Assembly: GCA_020746105.1 (NCBI GenBank)
Contig: CM036619.1
Coordinates: 54,606,635-54,670,634, forward strand
Direction of reading: 5' to 3'
Source of the DNA: Trogon surrucura
Taxonomy: Eukaryota > Chordata > Aves > Trogoniformes > Trogonidae
DNA: 64,000 nt
Part shown: piece after piece, positions 6,001 through 53,469 of the stretch
Numbering within the stretch: position 1 is the first letter of the stretch
How the letters are laid out: each line of letters begins with the position of its first letter
Program-made: the position numbers and the translations under genes
Notes under the pieces: generated by a model
The model's input: only the letters and a program-made list of their open reading frames with translations
Databases searched by the model: none
Told to the model about the DNA's origin: nothing

Positions 6001-8998
6001 ACAACAGTACCTTTTCCTGTCAGTCTCTGCTTCCTAGTCCTCAGGAGGTAGCTGCTCCCTGGAGTACCCCTGAACTATGAAAACCAACACAGTTAAGATA
6101 TCTCAACAGGGCTGCATCCTACTCTCTTGTAGGTGAGGGTTGGTAGGGAGATGAGTGGTCCCACCTGAAGCTCGTTGGCCCACCAAAGGTACACCTTTGT
6201 GCCCATCCTTCACAGATATAGAATTCTTCATGCCTAGTAAGACAAACATCCTGAATAATTCAGTATAGACCTATTGTAGAAATGTTGCAACAAGAAATTC
6301 ATGTGATTAAAATCTTAATTAGTATAAACACATAGAACATCCTTGTGATGCTCTTTATCTTTTTGTTCCTTGCTTTCCTGGTTGATAAGCTGGTGCAGCA
6401 CAAGTCTACCAGGGGTTACTAGGTGTTGCAAAAGAGGCAAATAAGAGTAGGCATGTACACACATCGAGAGATTGATAGCACAGTAAATGCAGTAATAGCT
6501 AGACTGCGATGCTGAAAACACTATGGGGAAAACAAACGTGAGTCTTAAGCTCTGAAGTGTGATTTTCTCACTTTCCAACTAGGAATAGAAAGCAATTCAG
6601 TGAGATTTGCTGCTCTAATAAAAAAGAGGTTTTGTAACAAAGCTTTAGCTGCAGCACATCTAGCCACTTGGCTTACAGGTAAGGTAGAGCTAAAATCTGT
6701 CAGATTGGGGTACCACCAAGCTGTTAAGTAGCATGAAATCTTCAGGCTGACTCAGTACCCAAAGGCTATAATGTGTGGTGTGCTTGTGACTTTTGCTGGT
6801 ACTCAAGGGACAGTTCTGTGTGCTGCTGTCGAACTTCAGATGGTCCCTTCAAAAACAGGAGAGAGAGTCTGTGGGAAAGAGGGTTGGCAGCACTGTGTCC
6901 ACAACTGGAAAAAAGCAATAGTGGAAGCATGACGGGAAAAAATCAGAGCTGAGAGGAAAAAGTGCACAAGGTGGTAGCAATAACAGTTCAGGCAGGGCTG
7001 TGGGTCTGGGAGGGAGGTGCAATGTAATGTACATTATGTGAGAGGGAAATGAGGCTTCATGTGGCCATCATTCTCCTAAGGAAAGCTCTAATTGTCACAT
7101 AAACCACTTGGGCTTTTCTCTAGCTTAAATTACAACCTCAGAAGGTGGTTACTTGTGGATAATGGGCTGTACCTTCAGCTGTAGTAAATCTGCACGACTT
7201 CTTGAGCACAAGAGCTTTTGCGCTGATTTAAACCAGCTAAATACTTGGCCCTGCACACCACATAAACACTGACAAAAGAGGTATCCTCTGTCTGGTGGAT
7301 TTATGGGCACGCTCTGTTAGCAGGGATGGTCTCCTCCTTATAATTCACCCTTTTATGAGGTTGTGATGTTTTGAGTCTGGAGCCAGCTTGGCCATGCCTG
7401 TACCATACAGCTGGTGTGCTTAGTCCACAACAGAGTGCCCTGCTTGTTTATGTGCCATGCACAGAGGTAGGAACAATTCATCCTGGATGCCCCACCAGGA
7501 TGCAGCAGAGATAAGTGCTCAGTCTTAGTGCTGGGAAACTCCCTAGCTGCCTCCATGACACTCTTCACCCCAGACAGAAGAGCTTCCCTGCCCAGCCTGG
7601 GTTTCACTGCTGCTTGAGTGGAAGGCAAAAGGCTCACAGGGCTACTGTGCAGCACTTCATGATACACCCATCCCAGCCCTGTCTGGCCATTAGAAAGTAT
7701 AAGAGAAGGCACTAGAAGCTGCTTGATAAACTACAGTTTCCCCAGCTATTTTTGTCTCAGGGTTCTCTACATAAAGCCTCTTTGGCACCATGTCTCTACG
7801 ATGTCTATCTGCATAACTAAAGAGTGGCTTCTGCTCTAACCCACAACCTAGACTTTTCCTCATAGTCAAAGGAGGTTGAAATATGCATATTGCTTTTAAA
7901 ATTAGCCTGAACATTTCTTTTAGCAGCAACCACAGATCACATCATAAACAGTCACATTTTTCAATACAAGTTTCACATTTGTTAGTTCTAATGTAATTAT
8001 TTGTAGAAATACCCTTTACCTATGATCCATAATCTTCTCAAACCTTGATGGTTTCTTGCTGTGAAAAATGATTCACATCGGGCTGAATGTATCATGGTAG
8101 CTCCGTATTTGTTCATTGCCATGCATTTTCTGATCCAGAACACTGACTACAGAAACAGTTCTGGGGGAAGTGCTCTCATAAAGAGCACTGCCAGAGAGCT
8201 AATCCAGTCCCCAAATGTTCAGGATGCTCCTGAAATTAACTGGAAGTGCACACAAATCTATCAAATGTTTATAGCATCCATTTTCTCATTGACAGATTTT
8301 GTAACACATGTTTTAAGGCTTTTACCCTCATGGATAATTAGCTCTTTTAATTTACAAAGTTAATTCTAGTGGTTGGAGGGACTCACACAGGTTTAAGCTG
8401 ACAGTCAAAATAAGAACTGGAAAGTTCAAATGTTTTTGTGAACATCTACCAAACCCATCTGGTCCTTGAAACCAGACACAAACTAAGTTGCCCAGGGTAC
8501 TGGGATTAAAGTCCTTCTAAGACAGAATGTAAGTGCAAAGAAAAATAAGTTCTCAGGAAGGAAATTGACCCCAATTTTGGTGAGCTCAAAGAGCTTCATT
8601 CAAAGCTGGGTTAGTGCAGGGCCACACCAGTCTGCAGACAGAAAAAGATGGGTAGCATTCAGACTGCCCTCTTCCCCTTTCACATGCACTTGTTTTGGGA
8701 CCAAAAGGCAGTTGCTCTTCTCAGGGGCTGAGCAAACGCAGACACACAGTGGATGTCAGGGATATGTCATATCTCCCACCAGCAGGGTGTTTTGCAGGGC
8801 CCTGCTCTCATCAAGCACATTCCTGTCCTGTAGCTGCAGAGCAAAACCTCGCTCTCAGTGGTGCTGAGGTTGCTCATTGCTTCCACAGATCTCAGGAAGG
8901 CTGCAAGAAGCTCAGTGTGCCTCAGTGACAAGGGGAGCTTTCCTGCCACCCACTTTACATATGCTTCCCATGCTCCTCTAAAATTCTCTATAGCATAT
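1..8998. other. Intergenic, no gene or repeat family recognised
   Basis: AT-rich single-copy-looking sequence with short open frames only, none recognised. A stretch at about 3030-3130 with several homeodomain-type cores (GGTAATTTAAGTAATAATTAC, CATAAATCATAA) may be a conserved element. A14 lies near 4991-5004. By mammalian synteny this should be downstream of AKAIN1, toward DLGAP1. Confidence 0.6.
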
Positions 8999-23553: not shown

Positions 23554-23580
23554 TCTTTCTTTCTTTCTTTCTTTCTTTCT

Positions 23581-23636
<56 letters not shown>

Positions 23637-23665
23637 TTCTTTCTTTCTTTTCTTTCTTTCTTTCT
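23554..23665. repeat. (TTTC)n microsatellite
   Basis: About 112 bp of TTTC repeats with a few single-base interruptions (for example near 23580, 23636 and 23650). One strand is pure pyrimidine. The reading frames here made of Phe, Ser and Leu are repeat artefacts. Confidence 0.97.
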
Positions 23666-26600
23666 GTCTATACACAAGGTGAAGACTGTATAGCTGCAAC
23701 TTCTATTTTGTACATTAAAAGGAGTGAGAGAAACCTCCAGTGAACAAATACATAATGTTAATATTTCTTTTAGAATTCGAGGAGTTTCTTACGATATGGT
23801 TTGAATGTTAAGAGCAATCAGACCCTGTATTTGCTGCAGTTTATAATGTAACACATTCCTTGAAGAGTAAGCTTCAAATGACAAGTTCTTTGGTTGTAAA
23901 TGTGTCTTTTAGGTAAAAAGCATAACGTCAAAGGAAAAGAAATGGAAGAAAATTTCATCTGTTTGTGTATCTCAGTACTAAAGTACCTGTATTCAGAGTT
24001 TGATTCCCACATTTTTTTCTGATTTTAGTGCATGTCTGTCTTAGAAATTTTTAATAATTATCGAAGGTATGAAACTTGACAGAAGCTGAGTATACCATGT
24101 TTATATGAGAATATTGTGTGAATTAATTCCCATGTTTTAAAAACTCTTTGTTCTCTCCTTTTTGTAAAACGTGAATTGTTTTTATTCGCAGTCCTTTGCT
24201 GAATGTATCTATGTAGAGAGTATGCTCCCTTTGTAAACCGGCTTAGATAGCATAAGTCTGTCAAATACTGCTGTCTAGGTCGCAAACAAGGAGTGCTCCT
24301 GTAATTTATGTAAAGAATTTAAAACCTTCGAAACACTGACCCAAAACTCCAAAAGCCCAGCCCAGCCTGAAATGTTTTAAAATGAAGTAAAACCTATTAT
24401 AGATAATAAAATAAACCCTAGAGTAATTGATTTTTACATATATATGCATCTAAAAGAGTGTGCAGCTCAGACTCAGGGGAACTGTTTTTCCCTAAAGCAA
24501 TCCTCAAAATCAAGCCTTCCCCACTATTTTTCCCATCTTGCTCCATCTCCACACAGGAAGGGGTGTCACATCCTGAGACACTTCTGTCTGGTTTTGCTGC
24601 ATGGGCCAAGAGATACAAAAGCTGTCAGGAGGCACAAACACAGACAGCTTATGCGAACACATAAAGCTCACTTCCTTAGGAAGTCCGGCAAAGAAAACTC
24701 CAGCACTGACCTCAGACAGTCACACAGGAGGGTGACTGAGGTTCAGCTGAGCTCATTGCGCGTTGTGGCATATCGTTTGTTGCCAAGATATGGACTGCAA
24801 TTTGTGTAGTGTGTAAGCAGCAGCAGCTTTGAAGCCAGTGTTAGAAGTGTAATTGGGTGAAGTCCAGGCTGCTTTCAAGGTGGTGAGAATCCTGACAGGA
24901 AATTTTAGCAGCTCAGATTCATTAACTGCAACCAGGTTCAGAAAGAAAGGCAAACATGACTAGGAGTTTCTCATTTCCCATGAAAAAAAAAAACAAAACT
25001 ACACCTTTTTCAAAGGATTAATTTATTTACATCAAACTTCCAAAACAATAATAATTTAAAAAGTAGATGTAGTGCAGGTTTCAAAATAAGAATGAGCCAC
25101 AGCCAGTGCTCCTTCAGGTGCTGTTCTTACAGAAACACCATGTACCTTTAACACAATTAAAACAAGCATGTACAGTTTCTAAACCTCAGCTGGGGCTTTG
25201 GCTTTTTGTCTTGATTTGTCATGATGGGTATAGAGTGATGCATAATGGCTAACTTGGCAGGCTGCCTTCCTGCAAAGGGACAAGTAGAACTAGTCTGTGA
25301 AAAGGGATGACTTATAAGAATGTCTTACCCCACTTGCCAGAATACAATGGTTCTCTATCATTGATTTATCTCTAGGAGGTGCATTTGAGGTTATATATAA
25401 ACCCAGAAAACGCTCACATGAGATTTTAAGATCAATGTGGATGACAGAAAGTAAAAACATGAGGAGTTCAAGACAGGAAAGGTGCTTGTTGAAAATAAAG
25501 CCTTCTGAATATTTATTAACTACTCCTGCTCTAACTTGCTCCAGAAAACACCCTTGGAAATCTTTGTTTTCTGAAGTTACTAGTGGTTTCTGAATCTATC
25601 AGTGTACCAAATGTGAATGCAAAAGTGCAGCTGCTCCTTCATCCCTTGATTTCTTTCAGCTGCAGCCAGAACAATTTTTCTTCATTTCCAGGTATCAACC
25701 TCTCTCTCACACACATATACTCCCAAAAGCCTAATCAGCAAACCAGAAACTACCAGGAGTGGTGCGTAATACTTTTGTTATAGAGTTGCATTGGACTATG
25801 AAAACAGTGTTGATGGTCCAAAGTATCTGTTCATTTGTGTGCTTCACATCACATAGCATCACAGGCTTCCTGCTATCATGCACAGTCACTGGATTTCATC
25901 ACAGTGTTCACCCCAAAATTACTGTGTTTTTCGGGTGGTGATTTTTTTAGCTCAGAAAGCACACACAGCAGGTAATAAAGACCGAGCAGTGAGGATCTGC
26001 TCTGGTCTGGGCAAGTTTCTGTTGGTAAGTAATATATTTTCCCAGACGACTGCTGCTTCGTTTTACCCAATAGAATGTTCTCTGCAAAAACATACCATAA
26101 GTGATTTATGTGGTAAGGGGTCAAGATCTATAGGAAAAATCTATAGGAAAATTGCTTTCTCAGACCAGCCCTGTAGCTGTAGTATCATCTCAGAGTTTGG
26201 ACTGCTGCTTTCAACAGTCTTCAGAGCCCACTTTTGACCTTTTTTATCTCTTCCTTTCTGTGTTGGTTGTCCTGTGGGGTCCTCCTATACTTTGGTCAGG
26301 AAGGTCATGTAACGAAAGAGGCTAGGGTTCCCAGAGTTTATCACTTCAGCTGTTGCTCCATTATTGCATGCCAGAACACCTGGGAAGGGAACAGGGTTTT
26401 TAGCTCCGCTCTTTTCCTGCTAGGACAAAACCATGGCTTGTTCATGCCCCTTTACATCACCTGTTTTTCTCCTTACATCTCTGCTGTTGGAATTGCCGTC
26501 CAAGGTGGAGGCAAAACGACAGCGGGAGAGACACAGTACAGTCTAATACCCAAAGTGACAGTTGCAAAATGAAGAGGAGGTGTTCATCTCCCATAGGTGT

Positions 26601-27464: not shown

Positions 27465-27968
27465 CGAGACCCCATCTGGAATATTGTGTCCAGTTCTGGG
27501 CCCCTCAGTTCAAGAAAGACAGGGAACTGCTGGAGAGAGTCCAGCACAGGGCAACTAGGATGATTAAGGGAGTGGAGCATCTCCCTTATGAGGAAAGGCT
27601 GAGAGAGCTGGGGCTCTTTAGTTTGGAGAAGAGGAGACTGAGGGGTGACCTCATTAATGTTTACAAATATATCAAGGGTGAGTGTCACGAGGATGGAGCC
27701 AGGCTCTTCTCGGTGACAACCAATGATAGAACAAGGGGTTCCGCTTAAACTCGAGAAGAAACTTCTTCTCAGTGAGGATGACGGAACACTGGAACAGGCT
27801 GCCCAGAGAGGTTGTGGAGTCTCCTTCTCTGGAGACATTCAAGACCTGCCTGGACACGTTCCTGTGTAGCATAATCTAGGCATTCCTGCTCTGGCAGGGG
27901 GATTGGACTTGATGATCTTTCGAGGTCCCTTCCAATCCCTAACATTCTGTGATTCTGTGATTCTGTGA
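27465..27968 (+). mobile_element. CR1 LINE, 5'-truncated, same young subfamily as 45320-47053
   Basis: It follows 46530-47050 closely, with few substitutions. One block of about 28 bp, present near 46803-46831 in the longer copy, is missing here; this destroys the C-terminal ORF2 frame. It ends in three ATTCTGTG-type octamers. It encodes only the ORF2 tail downstream of the polymerase domain. Confidence 0.93.
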
Positions 27969-35954: not shown

Positions 35955-38900
35955 CTGCCAGAACCAAATGACAAAGAAAGGGAACAAAGCATTTGCGGCT
36001 ACTGTGTGAATACTTGAAGGACAAGAAAAAAGGAGGGGAAAAAACCATCCCACAGACTACTTGGGAACAGTTTATTACATCGGAAACATGCTAATACAGA
36101 AGACAATGAAGTAGGGTGGAAAGTGCCTCCGTGTGCTTAGCACTACAGGACTGAATGAAAGGAGAGACTTTGAGTCATGCAGCTCGGTCACCCACTTCCC
36201 AGCTCTGGGGACAGCTGTGGCTTCACAGCTGAAACAATCTCAGCTGCATTTTGCATTGAGACAGGGAAGGAGGGTTTTTTCATCCAGCTGTGAATCATAT
36301 CCTTTTTGACTTGAGCTATGCTGCTGGATGGGGAATTGGACTTCATTTTGCAAGCTTGACATGTACTGCCTAACCATCCTACAGAGAAAAAAGCTGTTTC
36401 ATTAACATTTCTATTTACTTTTACTTCAGATTAAAAGCCCTCATCCATCAAATTCCAATTTGACTTTAAGGTACAAAATTTTGTAGGTATCACTTTGTTA
36501 ATCCTTAGCTGCATTTGCAAAAACATTTGCAAAAGCATTCCAAATGCTCAGATTGCTATAGGTAAAACAGAAAAAAACCCAACAAAACACATTGTCTATA
36601 GTAACCTGACAAACATGTATTTCTTATGTGACACTTCCTTGTTTTGCCAAAGCATTAAAATCCTGACAAAAACAAAGTAATGTAGTGTGTGTATTCACAT
36701 TTGATAATGAAGATTTGTTTATGTTAAAAGCTTTCTCTTTTTAACTATTTTGATTCCTAACACAGATGATGACTTGGAAGGACAATAAAGAATGCTGCAT
36801 AATGTTTGATCTTGATACAAAAAAAATAATTCTGAACTAAGGTGATGTAAAGCAATATATTGGCATTTAGGAAAATGTGGATTTGTTTGCTAATTGAAAT
36901 GCTTTAGGTTCTTATTTACTTCACTCTTCTATGAAGGAAGGCTGAGAGAGTTTGGGTTGTTGAGCCTGGAAAAGAGAAGTTTCTGTGGAGATCTTACTTC
37001 AGCCTTTCAGTGTATAAAGGAGGTTTATAAGAAAGACGGAGACATTTTACCAGGGCCTGGAGTGACAGGACAAGGGGCAAGGGTTTTAAACTGTAAGAGG
37101 GTAGATTTAGATTAGAGATAAGGATGAATTTTTTTACATTAAGTGTGGTGAGACACTGGAACAAGTTGCTCAGAGAAGCTGTTGATGCCCCTTCTGGAAG
37201 TGTTCAAGGCCAGGTTGGATGGGCCTTTGAGCAACTTGGTCTAATGGAAAGTGTCCCTGCCCACGGCAGGGGAGTTGGACTAGATCATCTCTGAAGGTCC
37301 TTTTTGACCTAAACCATTCTGTGATTCCATGATCTGTGAGACCAAAACAACCACTAGCAAAATTATAAAAGCTTACTCTGGGAGAAAGAAATAATTCATT
37401 ATCTTCTGTATTTCTTTGAAAAGACTTAAAAAACCATACTTGTTTCATGTTCATATTATACATTTTCTGGCTTAAGGTAAAATACAAATGTGTTTTTTTC
37501 AATGGAAAATTTTTTTAAAAACCCCAAACCCTGCAACTGTACTGAGATGACAAAGTCTGTCTACAATTAAGAGGTTAAAAACACAAAAATATCAAAAACA
37601 TGTTTTTAGCTGTAAAAGCTGACTGAATGGAATCACTTGAATTCTTGGCACAATCAGCTTCCCTGATTCAGTTTGTTCCACTCCTCAGCATTTGAAATGA
37701 AGTTTTTTTAGAGTAAAACTCAATGTTACTTAACAGTAAAGTGCAGTATTTCCTTCTTCTTCAGAAATGAACTCACTTTCTATTACACAATGAATTAGTC
37801 TTCTTGTTGGGCTGAAAAAGATCAGCCAACTTAGCTGATGTTCAAAAGATAATATATTAAGAAAAGCATGGATAAACATGAAACTGTAAATTCAAATGAG
37901 TATGTTGGATGGACTATGAGGTTATATGAAATGTGAAAAATTTGCCAACCTTTATAGCCATAAAAAATACAAGAATTTATTGTTAAAAAACATACCCTAC
38001 TGCCATTAAGCACATTGCTGTGGAAATTACTCAGTTTTCTTTCCTTAGGGATGTTTTATTATTTGCTTGATTCTTGCCACTTAATTTACAAAATCTGAAC
38101 TTTCAGTATTTTTACACAGGAAGGTCATCCACTACAATACCCAGTTGGATAAAAAGGATACTTTCCCAGTCATTTTCTACCTGAGTTTTTCAGCTGTTTA
38201 TTGTGGAGCAAAGTAGCCTAAAGCACCACTCTGATAAATAAAACCTAGATTACCTTTGCCCAACTTTATGTCATTAGATGATTCTTTTATTTGCTGTGAA
38301 AACAAACCATGAACAGAGAACCCAAAAAACTCTTAAGTACTTCTGCCCTGCCTCTGATGGTTTAGATATGCACAGAAAGGAAACAAGGCAGCTCAGACAC
38401 ACTCTTAACAATTTTACATCTGTGTAATACAGTTACGGTGGTAGTAACCCAGGTAACAACAGCTAATTGACTTTGGAAACAAAGAGAGTCAAAGATGCTG
38501 GCCTGGGGTGATGTGACCAGTGAGACCATTGCCAGCTTATGTTGACCACCCAAACCAGAAAGCAACAGTGAAACTAACACTGTGTAGAGGTCTGAGCCTG
38601 CATTGGGACCATTATGTGTAGGAGCTGGACTGCCAGGCAGGATTCAGACATGTTGAACAGTCAGACATGAACATCCAGCTTCCCTGGGTGTGTGATGTCC
38701 ATTACAGCTGGCCTACCTGGACGTGATCCTGGGCAAACGGTTCTCGGTTACCCTACCTGAGCAGGAGTTGGACAAGATGGCCTCCAGAGGTCCCTTCCAG
38801 CCTCAGACTTTCTATGTTCCTGTGGTTCTAGCTGGTGAGCCTGCCATAGAATCATAGAACGTTAGGGGTTGGAAGGGACCTCGAAAGATCATCTAGTTCA

Positions 38901-50900: not shown

Positions 50901-51826
50901 ACTTTGTTATCAAAGTCAACCCCAAGACATTTTTTTTAATGAATGTATAAAGCTTCTGAATTCTTATCAATATAAAATTTCAAAGGAAGACAAAACAGTT
51001 ACTCATTGTCAAGTTGCAGCCTTTACTTTCCCTAGTCTACTGACTCACAATTTTCACTAACAATTATACATCTTTAAAGCAGTTAATTTCAAGTAATTTC
51101 ACTACAGAAGATATTATGCATGACTTACATTTATATCCTGGAGCTACTGGGCCTCTCATCCATTTCTGAACAACAAACTGCCTATTTCCAAGCAGAATGT
51201 ACCAAGTCCAATGTAGGTCCCCTTCTACTATGGTGTAGCACGTATATATACACTACACAGCAAAGATTCTGCACCCTTATAAAGTGAGGTCTTGCATTAG
51301 ACATGATCTCCCGCTGAAATCTTCAGTTTTGTTTCAGTAAAAATTGGACCGAACAAACTTTCTGTTCTTTTTCATTTAAATACTTGGTGGGCAGGGGGAT
51401 ATGGAAATTTGTGAAATCTCTCAAGTTCCAGAGATTGTCTCACTGACAGCCACCGCTGTGGGTGCTGTGGTGGAAACACACTCTCCAATCATTGCAAGGC
51501 CATGTCCCCCTTCCTGACCCTTTTGTGCAGTCTGACAAGCACAGTTCCCTGCACACTTTTATAGGACGCTCCTGTCCCTGATGGGAACAACATAGGCGAC
51601 CCTCATAACCTCCAGCTCCACAGCTAAACACATTCTAACCTAAGCCACCTTCCTTTACACCGCCTGTTGGTGGCTCTATTGAAATTGCCCATTGGCAGCT
51701 CTAGTTCAGCCGCAACTCCCTCCCCGCAGCCCCCTGGAGTAGCTCTCCGGCACGGCCGGGGCCTTCCTGCTGGGCTCCCCCGGCTGGGAACGGGAAGCGG
51801 CTGCCCTTACCTGGAGCGAACACCAT
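35764..51826 (-). CDS. AKAIN1: AKAIN1, A-kinase anchor inhibitor 1 (two coding exons, whole gene span)
   Basis: The coding sequence joins 51826-51811 to 35954-35764 on the minus strand. Exon 1 ends after one base of a codon and exon 2 begins with the other two, so a glycine is formed at the junction. The product is 68 residues, starting MVFAPGEKPG and ending LTKKHEKK, and it matches AKAIN1 (formerly C18orf42 in human) along its length as I remember it. Residues 23-39 ([17 protein letters not shown]) form an amphipathic helix with I25, V26, A29, I30, A33, V34 and V37 on one face, the pattern of PKA RII-binding helices. AKAIN1 is described as binding RII subunits and competing with AKAPs for them, so releasing PKA from anchoring sites. 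There is no signal peptide or membrane segment, and the C-terminus is basic. The 15.9-kb intron is full of transposon relics. The 3'UTR end is not determined: on the gene strand there is an ATTAAA at 35035-35040 and an AATAAA at 34695-34700, both untested. Confidence 0.93.
36928..37337 (+). mobile_element. CR1 LINE, 3' fragment, inside the window between AKAIN1 exons
   Basis: Recognised from 'GAAGGCTGAGAGAGTTTGGG', 'TAGATTTAGATTAGAGATAAGG', 'GAGACACTGGAACAAGTTGC' and 'GGAGTTGGACTAGATCATC', then a decayed tail (ATTCTGTGATTCCATGATC). It lies in the AKAIN1 intron, antisense to the gene. Confidence 0.92.
38712..38828 (+). mobile_element. CR1 LINE, short 3' fragment (old subfamily)
   Basis: 'CTACCTGGACGTGATCCTGGG', 'GAGCAGGAGTTGGAC' and 'CCAGAGGTCCCTTCCAGCC' match the last 110 bp of a CR1 subfamily with a 'CCTCAG' tail. 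The octamer end is eroded. It is followed within 17 bp by an opposite-facing CR1 tail. Confidence 0.82.
38845..38910 (-). mobile_element. CR1 LINE, 66-bp extreme 3' end (young subfamily)
   Basis: The inverted octamers CATAGAATCATAGAACG, then 'TTAGGGGTTGGAAGGGACC' and 'TCGAAAGATCATC', match the 3' end of the copies at 27465-27968 and 45320-47053. Only about 66 bp were copied before reverse transcription stopped. Confidence 0.85.
40889..41590 (+). mobile_element. Tc1/mariner-like DNA transposon relic, left end plus N-terminal transposase
   Basis: The left end begins CAGTTGCAAGAAAAAGTACG and continues 'TGAACCTTTTGGAATTTC', typical of Tc1 inverted repeats. A degenerate second copy of the 'GGAAAAAGTA...AA.CT.TTGAG' motif near 41079-41104 fits an IR/DR-type end with two direct repeats. 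From 41255 a single frame encodes a Tc1 transposase N-terminus: [48 protein letters not shown] and [10 protein letters not shown]. These are the paired-like HTH domains. The frame has two in-frame TGA stops, at 41288-41290 and near 41495. Homology ends near 41590, before the DDE catalytic domain, and I see no right inverted repeat. It is a dead, 3'-deleted copy in the AKAIN1 intron. Confidence 0.85.
45320..47053 (+). mobile_element. CR1 LINE, 5'-truncated, with open reverse-transcriptase frame
   Basis: This is the longest CR1 in the window: 1.73 kb, starting at the 'EVGALVTED' segment just upstream of the reverse transcriptase and ending in the tail ATTCTATGATTCTATGAT. 5' truncation and the absence of a clear target duplication are usual for CR1. 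It lies in the AKAIN1 intron, antisense to the gene. The complete openness of its frame and its clean octamer tail mark it as the youngest insertion here. Confidence 0.95.
45323..46972 (+). pseudogene. CR1 ORF2 C-terminal two thirds: reverse transcriptase, open but truncated
   Basis: The frame is open for 549 codons (stop TAG at 46970-46972), but it has no natural start: it enters mid-protein and lacks the whole endonuclease domain. Numbering from 45323, the reverse transcriptase spans roughly residues 100-370. It has YLDFSKA at 195-201 (catalytic D197), SGVPQ at 252-256 and FADD at 283-286 (catalytic D285, D286). Two changes hit normally invariant spots: proline at 202 (DFSKAPDTV) where non-LTR polymerases have phenylalanine, and Arg-Leu after SGVPQ where Gly-Ser is the rule. 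The C-terminal part (about 370-549) is the usual CR1 tail region. I judge it inactive in cis. Truncation at birth is shown by the sequence; loss of activity is inferred. Confidence 0.9.
51811..51826 (-). CDS. AKAIN1: AKAIN1 first coding exon (16 nt coding)
   Basis: On the minus strand the ATG at 51826-51824 sits in a strong Kozak context (GGCACCATGG). Four more codons (V F A P) and one base follow, then a donor reading CCAG|GTAAGG, with the GT at 51810-51809. The exon lies inside a CpG island. It is far too short to be found as an open reading frame. It was recognised from the conserved N-terminus, the donor site and the phase match to exon 2. Confidence 0.92.
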
Positions 51827-51849
51827 GGTGCCGCCGGCAAGCGGCGTGG

Positions 51850-51870
51850 ATCAGCACCTCGGACAGCGCC
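51850..51870 (+). promoter_or_regulatory. RE1/NRSE-like REST site 1
   Basis: Matches the canonical 21-bp RE1 at 19 of 21 positions, with differences at positions 1 and 10. Both half-sites (CAGCACC and GGACAGCGCC) are intact with the canonical 2-bp spacer between them. It lies 24-44 bp upstream of the AKAIN1 ATG, in antisense orientation to the gene. Confidence 0.82.
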
Positions 51871-51883
51871 CGTCCTTGACCGG

Positions 51884-51904
51884 CTCAGCACCTCGGACAG
51901 CGCC
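51884..51904 (+). promoter_or_regulatory. RE1/NRSE-like REST site 2
   Basis: Matches the canonical RE1 at 19 of 21 positions (differences at 1 and 10). Both half-sites are perfect and spacing is canonical. Confidence 0.82.
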
Positions 51905-51917
51905 CGTCCTTGTCTGG

Positions 51918-51938
51918 CTCAGTACCACGGACAGCGCT
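51918..51938 (+). promoter_or_regulatory. RE1/NRSE-like REST site 3 (most diverged unit)
   Basis: Matches the canonical RE1 at 18 of 21 positions (differences at 1, 6 and 21). The left half-site reads CAGTACC, a C-to-T change at a CpG-free position. The centre (CCACGGACAGCG) is canonical, including position 10, where the other three units differ. Confidence 0.72.
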
Positions 51939-51951
51939 CGTCCTCGCCCGG

Positions 51952-51972
51952 ATCAGCACCTCGGACAGCGCC
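51952..51972 (+). promoter_or_regulatory. RE1/NRSE-like REST site 4
   Basis: Matches the canonical RE1 at 19 of 21 positions (differences at 1 and 10), identical to site 1 over the 21 bp. It is the unit farthest from the AKAIN1 start codon. Confidence 0.82.
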
Positions 51973-52310
51973 CGGCCCGCACGGCGGCGGAGGCGGGCCG
52001 CGGTCCCTCCCTCCACACTGCGGCGGGGCGGGGAAGGGGCCGGAGCGCAGCGCGGCCCCGCGCCTCCACCACCCGCGCGGACACGCATACACGCTCTCCG
52101 GGAATCATCCCTGCCACAACTCGTTGCTCTGCAGCGGTAGCAGGGGGAAGTGCAAACACGAGAAAGGTAACAGCGATCTGCTCCGCAGGGAGACCGGCTA
52201 ATTGCTTCTAATCACCTCTCGGCAATAGTCCCGCCGTGTGACATTTCGGGGCGCACTGCTTTCACCACGAGCTAACAGCCCTATTAATAGGCTCCAGCGA
52301 CACCGGACTT

Positions 52311-53469
52311 TGTCACAGTATTTTAGTTTTCAAAGGTTCAGATGCTGAGGAATTTATAGTTTGATTTCACAGGCCTGTTGTGCCAGCTCTACCAAAGAAA
52401 AGCACTTTAGTTTAAGAGGGAAGATGAATGTGTCAGCACATAAAAGATGACATCAGGGCCAAAAGGTAAATAAGTTAATGAACAAGTAATAAAGAAGAGG
52501 AGGGGAAGCACAGAGAGAAGACAGAACTTAAAATTTTCCATCACTTTTTATATCTCATATTTAGTTTGCTTTTATCTCATATTTAGTTTGCTTTTATTTC
52601 TAAAGCCCATGTCAAGAGTTTCTTTGGGCTCTGCACTTCTACAACAGAAGTGAGAAGCACAACAGGCAGATGGGACACAATTTAGAGAACCCAGCTGTGC
52701 TGTGTAAGCCCACACCTGTGAGAGGTATTTGGAAAAATACTGAGTGATCAGTGTCCATTAGAGAAAGTACACTTAAAAGAAAACCATCAACAATACACTT
52801 TTACCATGAATGTTTGCATGTAAATTTTTGCAATGTGTAATACACTTTCCAATCATACGCTCATAACCTATGGATATTCCTATAAACCTACTTCATTCTT
52901 TTCATATTCAATCATTATATACACAATTTTAAGTCTTCAAATAAAGCCTTATTCTGAAAGTACAGATACAGAAACACATTGACTTGATTAAATAATTCTG
53001 TCTATATAGTTCAGTAAAAATTCAAGATTCGCACCACCATTAAACTAACCATCTAGTGACAGAGTTTTCAGGTTTTTGCAAACACTATAGAACATAATTT
53101 CTTCTTGGGAATTCCTTCCAGATTCATCCTCACACATACCATTTCTACTGTATGATTTCTGTATATTCCTTTTATCACAAGATCTTCACCTTACCAGTTT
53201 GAGCTTCTTTATTGCCATTTGTCTCCTGTCTTATATTTCAGAGATTCAATTTTAATTCAGTTGCCATCTGAGAGAAGTAACTAACCTAAACACTCTAACT
53301 CTGACTGCTCAGAAATGGGTGTTCCCTCTAAGAACGTTACTTCAAAAATCTTGGATTTATCCTTTTTTCATTTATCATCATTCTCATCCACCTTGTGTCT
53401 GAGAACTAACAGAATAACTATGAACCAGAATAATTACATGAATTAGAATATTTTCTAGTACAATAATCC
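52311..53469. other. AKAIN1 upstream flank, nothing recognised except a tandem duplication
   Basis: AT-rich sequence between the CpG island and the CR1 5' piece. No coding or repeat-family signal. Confidence 0.5.
52551..52594. repeat. 22-bp perfect tandem duplication
   Basis: A 22-bp AT-rich unit beginning TATCTCATATTTAGTTTGC occurs twice in direct contact (52551-52572 and 52573-52594) without mismatch. This is a recent slippage event upstream of the AKAIN1 CpG island. Confidence 0.92.

Follow-up and report, generated by a model that had tools for sequence, protein, structure and literature searches.

Four tandem RE1/NRSE motifs in a 34-bp array at the AKAIN1 start and their putative role in REST-dependent silencing

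The AKAIN1 gene and its CpG island

A tblastn search of the 64-kb window (the whole stretch of DNA that was analysed) with human AKAIN1 gave an alignment of 64 residues, 70% of them identical, on the minus strand (35955-35767, E = 2.6e-24). The same query placed MVFAPG at 51826, a match that is not significant by itself (E = 4.9). Splice joints are present as CCAG/gtaag at 51811/51810 and cag/GTGAG at 35955/35954, and joining the exons at these GT/AG sites gives a 68-residue protein. This agrees with the two-exon AKAIN1 frame, which in human begins MVFAPGEKPG and includes a PKA-RI/RII-binding helix. The predicted protein scored above the cut-off for PF10470, the PKA-RI-RII binding domain of AKAPs (27.5 bits, cut-off 22.7), and matched AKAP7/AKAP18 chains in the PDB; AKAIN1 is predicted to be a small protein that binds protein kinase A via a helix. 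The tblastn match, the splice joints and the domain score all support the gene assignment made in an earlier note on this DNA, which had named AKAIN1. The gene is named in a transcriptome study of chick hippocampus (PMC8909157) and in human data from the entorhinal cortex (PMC9856101), and in neither case does this imply brain specificity.

Exon 1 and the presumed promoter lie within a CpG island, and the island also holds a minisatellite with four RE1 motifs. The gene is encoded on the minus strand and the RE1s lie on the plus strand, the motifs thus pointing against the gene. Between the A of the AKAIN1 ATG (51826) and the first RE1 21-mer (51850) there are 23 bp; the earlier note was right in that the array adjoins the start codon, and its figure of 24 bp is corrected by one. 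The features of the locus are as follows.

35954-35764, minus strand: coding part of AKAIN1 exon 2 with the stop codon; cag acceptor at 35957-35955; 70% identity over 64 residues to human AKAIN1
51826-51811, minus strand: coding part of AKAIN1 exon 1, encoding MVFAP and the initial base of the G codon; a gtaag donor comes next
51700-52260, no strand: CpG island spanning the presumed promoter and exon 1; GC 0.69, CpG observed/expected 0.92 (window 0.40 and 0.20)
51849-51974, plus strand: 34-bp minisatellite with four RE1s; Tandem Repeats Finder bounds 51851-51974
51850-51870, plus strand: RE1 unit 1, 19/21 consensus and 14/14 core positions; the unit closest to the AKAIN1 ATG
51884-51904, plus strand: RE1 unit 2, 19/21 consensus and 14/14 core positions
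51918-51938, plus strand: RE1 unit 3, 18/21 consensus and 13/14 core positions; positions 1, 6 and 21 are mismatched, and spacer position 10 carries the consensus A
51952-51972, plus strand: RE1 unit 4, 19/21 consensus and 14/14 core positions; degenerate spacer after the unit

The motifs of this array, their number, spacing, orientation and chance level, the identity of the gene, and the place next to the ATG in the CpG island were established directly from the DNA.

Motif match, repeat structure and chance level

Similarity to RE1 is expressed throughout as matches to the consensus, in place of a position-matrix score such as that of JASPAR MA0138. When compared with the 21-bp NRSE TTCAGCACCACGGACAGCGCC, termed canonical in a passage of PMC3529185, the four 34-bp direct repeats on the plus strand each contain a 21-mer that matches this RE1/NRSE consensus, at 19, 19, 18 and 19 of 21 positions, as anticipated by the earlier count of 18 or 19 per unit. 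All four units deviate at position 1; all but unit 3 also deviate at spacer position 10, and unit 3 deviates at positions 6 and 21. Each unit has the canonical half-site layout, with a left half-site (positions 1-9) and a right half-site (positions 12-21) in one orientation and separated by 2 bp. The left half-site carries one mismatch in three units and two in unit 3, while the right half-site is perfect in three units and has a single mismatch in unit 3. Wu and Xie (2006) derived an NRSE profile from 38 validated human sites, with a core formed by positions 2-9 and 12-17 according to the part of that article consulted (PMC1794552); at these 14 positions units 1, 2 and 4 are complete and unit 3 matches at 13. 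Three units fit the IUPAC pattern TYAGMRCCNNRGMSAG exactly and unit 3 fits it with one mismatch. Likewise, the 16-bp core TCAGCACCnnGGACAG, which a passage of PMC3531662 describes as having been used for finding zebrafish NRSEs, is present without mismatch in units 1, 2 and 4 and with one in unit 3. Of 13 papers listed by a text search, one (PMC4306199) contains TCAGCACCTCGGACAG, an RE1 word of the array, and none contains TCAGTACCACGGACAG, likewise an RE1 word of the array.

The RE1s follow each other head-to-tail with a constant period (spacing 34, 34 and 34 bp), and Tandem Repeats Finder reported a period of 34, 3.6 copies, 86% matches and 0 indels. At 10.5 bp per turn, this period rotates each unit by about 86 degrees around the helix relative to the one before. 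Four full 21-mers at this spacing, all with the 2-bp gap, bear out the description of four tandem RE1/NRSE sites with canonically spaced half-sites in a 34-bp array at the AKAIN1 start. The statement that there are four 34-bp units holds for the RE1s, four of which are complete, but not for the repeat itself, which amounts to about 3.6 units with a degenerate 13-bp spacer after RE1 unit 4.

The next-best RE1 match on either strand of the 64 kb scored 16/21 (8848-8868, minus strand). In 200 dinucleotide shuffles of the whole window the best score was 17, obtained four times, and 0/200 reached 18. When the 561-bp CpG island was shuffled 20,000 times, no shuffle reached 19/21 and one reached 18/21; these shuffles are conservative in that they include the array's own composition. 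Assuming independent bases, the number of sites with at least 19/21 matches expected in the window is 1.1e-5 at window composition and 1.8e-4 at island composition. A single 19/21 site in the window is far above chance. All these figures are valid for one site only; the other copies are duplicates rather than independent events and therefore add nothing to the chance probability.

With two mismatches allowed, the loose pattern TYAGMRCCNNRGMSAG was not enriched in the window (15 matches vs 10.8 expected; 12 of 100 shuffles had as many), and TCAGCACCnnGGACAG with up to two mismatches was found outside the array only at 8852 on the minus strand. The 21-mer at 8848-8868, which is RE1-like at 16/21 consensus and 12/14 core positions, is weak and probably due to chance. 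Exact pairs of RE1 cores were counted in collections without vertebrates: 0 pairs 18 bp apart among viral contigs, and 0 pairs 10-40 bp apart among bacterial and archaeal genomes.

Proposed REST-dependent silencing of AKAIN1

We consider it quite probable that REST represses AKAIN1 through the four-RE1 array and that the gene is off outside neurons. REST binding, repression, the place where transcription starts, the origin of the copies by duplication and any advantage of having several are what we infer, along the following lines. A homotypic cluster of four would have arisen when one ancestral RE1 was duplicated locally and in tandem, in the AKAIN1 promoter or 5'-UTR; each RE1 of the cluster would hold one REST molecule, with 13 bp between successive 21-mers. 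REST would then recruit its corepressors, the histone deacetylase-containing Sin3 and CoREST complexes, and the CpG-island promoter of AKAIN1 would be kept silent in non-neuronal and progenitor cells, to be released when REST drops in neurons. With several RE1s it would be more likely that REST occupies one or more of them, and silencing could last at lower REST levels, for which direct cooperativity would not be needed.

Several published observations bear on these steps. In the parts of PMC8096226 drawn on here, fingers ZF3-5 of REST read the right half of the NRSE and ZF7-8 the left half, and EMSA with tandem probes from CELSR3 and PCDH-gamma-a yielded two shifted bands, indicating one REST per NRSE in one orientation; cooperativity of REST on tandem NRSEs is not reported in these parts. 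Since the gaps are 13 bp in the AKAIN1 array vs 9 bp in the CELSR3 NRSEs, simultaneous occupancy by REST is plausible. The cooperative or graded repression suggested before would be plausible. That REST brings in Sin3, CoREST and histone deacetylases as corepressors is described in a passage of PMC3902484.

Furthermore, excerpts of PMC2573930 associate proximity of REST sites to the TSS with the strongest rise in expression under dominant-negative REST, which makes the position of the array the usual one for responsive REST targets; Snap25 and Celsr3, which both carry tandem RE1s, belong to the most strongly induced genes. In zebrafish, whether a minimal promoter carried one, two or four NRSEs, expression was confined to the brain in at least 10% of the embryos; two NRSEs provided the best specificity (26.4%), and four repressed expression more in skin and notochord, and in the brain too (PMC3531662, in part). 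A genome-wide reporter assay, again according to excerpts (PMC9903721), found silencing by strong canonical RE1 motifs and not by weak ones, with strong repression at only 2,657 REST-bound canonical-motif sites (31%); this assay excluded sites up to 5 kb upstream of a TSS and bears on promoter sites only indirectly. On the basis of the literature on TSS-proximal and tandem RE1s, zebrafish NRSEs and strong-motif reporters, the array would be expected to silence AKAIN1 strongly in cells other than neurons. The 31% figure of the reporter assay runs counter to this expectation, as do two statements, each from a source seen in part: the majority of genes with an associated REST site showed no derepression under dominant-negative REST (PMC2573930), and loss of REST in mouse and chicken reportedly derepresses only few neural genes (PMC3902484, citing Chen 1998). 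AKAIN1 is likely a direct target of REST. It is not so named, and REST does not appear, in the titles and abstract openings of the 17 papers listed under the gene names AKAIN1 (11 papers) and C18orf42 (7 papers, one of them shared).

Multiple REST sites per gene and a REST-occupied promoter VNTR are already known; the AKAIN1 array is of this kind, in an unusually regular minisatellite form. The extracts of PMC1794552 list more than one NRSE for 75 of 566 predicted human REST target genes, and the earlier view that single RE1s are usual is to be qualified accordingly, and also in view of human NSF. NSF resembles the array in having four predicted NRSEs in less than 100 bp, with the REST sites packed into a similar length (PMC1794552, in part). 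However, the NSF sites were predicted by profile and mammalian conservation, whereas those of AKAIN1 are arranged head-to-tail with an exact 34-bp period. Snap25 and Celsr3/CELSR3 similarly carry tandem REST sites near the start of a neuronal gene (passages of PMC2573930 and PMC8096226), and both are strongly raised by dominant-negative REST (PMC2573930). PMC2573930 describes the RE1s of both genes as tandem and canonical, and PMC8096226 those of CELSR3 as four half-sites forming two noncanonical NRSEs 9 bp apart; a minisatellite of four canonical copies, as at AKAIN1, is described in neither of these passages.

The synthetic zebrafish silencers REx2, REx4 and 2xNRSE resemble the array in placing two or four NRSE cores at a promoter, and they restrict expression towards the nervous system (excerpts of PMC3531662 and PMC3529185). 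Unlike the AKAIN1 array they are engineered, and REx2 combines two different NRSEs 27 bp apart. The VNTR of the MIR137 internal promoter is, like the array, a promoter tandem repeat, and it shows REST occupancy and genotype-dependent reporter activity (PMC4393679, in part). Its 15-bp unit is, however, too short for a full 21-bp RE1, and a single potential REST site is mentioned in the passages concerned. In those portions of the open-licence PMC literature that the search covered, no regular minisatellite of four units, each with a canonical RE1, was found. 'Minisatellite' does not occur as a whole word in the main text of PMC3902484, and the one matching passage of PMC2687797 is unrelated to RE1 arrays. 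Regularly spaced and almost identical, the four canonical RE1s of the small AKAIN1 promoter offer a natural test of whether multiplicity alters the REST level required for silencing.

Added value of multiplicity and alternative readings

Two alternatives concern the added value of multiplicity and are compatible with REST repression. The stronger holds that a single ancestral RE1 is functional and that the extra copies are a neutral minisatellite expansion in GC-rich DNA with no regulatory effect. We lean against it, while granting it appreciable weight. The RE1 copies are tandem duplicates, and duplication carries the motif along regardless of its importance; unit 3 is changed at one core position; and in zebrafish one NRSE sufficed to restrict expression to the brain in 10% or more of the embryos (PMC3531662, in part). 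On the other hand, three of four copies are core-perfect and the spacers have diverged, a hint at the retention of two or more copies, though a weak one with p values between 0.017 and 0.55 depending on the definition.

These values derive from the variation among units. Any two of the 34-bp units differ at between 3 and 10 positions, and 10 of the 34 columns vary among the four units. Within the 14-position core 1/14 columns varies vs 9/20 elsewhere (one-sided Fisher p = 0.019), and leaving out only positions 1, 10 and 11 gives 2/18 vs 8/16 variable columns (p = 0.017); both comparisons use later, redrawn core definitions, and the units are few and related. When all 21 RE1 positions are set against the spacer, 4/21 vs 6/13 columns vary (p = 0.098), and for the first three units alone 4/21 vs 3/13 (p = 0.55). 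The lower core variation is only a hint of selective upkeep of the RE1 copies.

According to the second alternative, which we regard as unlikely but worth stating, copy number is a tuning device: units gained or lost between individuals or species would determine at what REST level AKAIN1 escapes silencing, in the manner of promoter VNTRs. The minisatellite structure of the array fits such a role, as do the stronger repression in skin and notochord and the drop in brain expression with four NRSEs in zebrafish (PMC3531662, in part) and the REST occupancy and genotype-dependent reporter activity of the human MIR137 VNTR (PMC4393679, in part). The differences between units speak against it. Their extent indicates that the array is not freshly homogenised, and this suggests a rather old, slowly turning array; its copy number is known from one haplotype. 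In a broader and still less likely version, the copy number of a REST-site minisatellite would set the amount of REST needed to silence a PKA-anchoring gene, and gain and loss of units among birds would form an evolving rheostat on neuronal cAMP signalling.

It is very improbable that the repeats act instead within the AKAIN1 5'-UTR through upstream-ORF control or RNA structure. The sense strand does carry TGAs at 51853, 51887, 51921 and 51955, with frame offsets 0, 1, 2 and 0, which together close all three frames just before the AKAIN1 ATG, and the frames opened by upstream ATGs (52088 and 52108) terminate within the array. However, the TGA is a mere complement of the RE1 TCA, and, with 34 not divisible by three, the TGAs of the four units fall into different frames. 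Moreover, folding of the 177-nt sense strand across the array was no better than that of its shuffles (z = 0.11; 112 of 200 were at least as good), which leaves a role of RNA structure unsupported. The weakest alternative, a GC-rich minisatellite resembling the RE1 consensus by chance, is rejected by the window and island shuffles and can practically be set aside: the island is indeed GC-rich and one of its 20,000 shuffles came to 18/21, but none came to 19/21, and three units are exact at the 14-position core with the correct 2-bp half-site gap.

Other repeats were noted in the window. A 22-bp tandem repeat lies about 600 bp upstream of the array (52546-52601, with 2.1 perfect copies at 52551-52597), and a TCTT microsatellite of 28.8 copies occupies 23554-23669. 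With up to two mismatches, an avian CR1 tail pattern has eight matches in the window vs 0.8 expected, in keeping with DNA of a bird or another sauropsid. One of the eight belongs to the segment 27801-27968, which resembles the 3' end of a CR1 retrotransposon and ends in three ATTCTGTG units (27944-27968).
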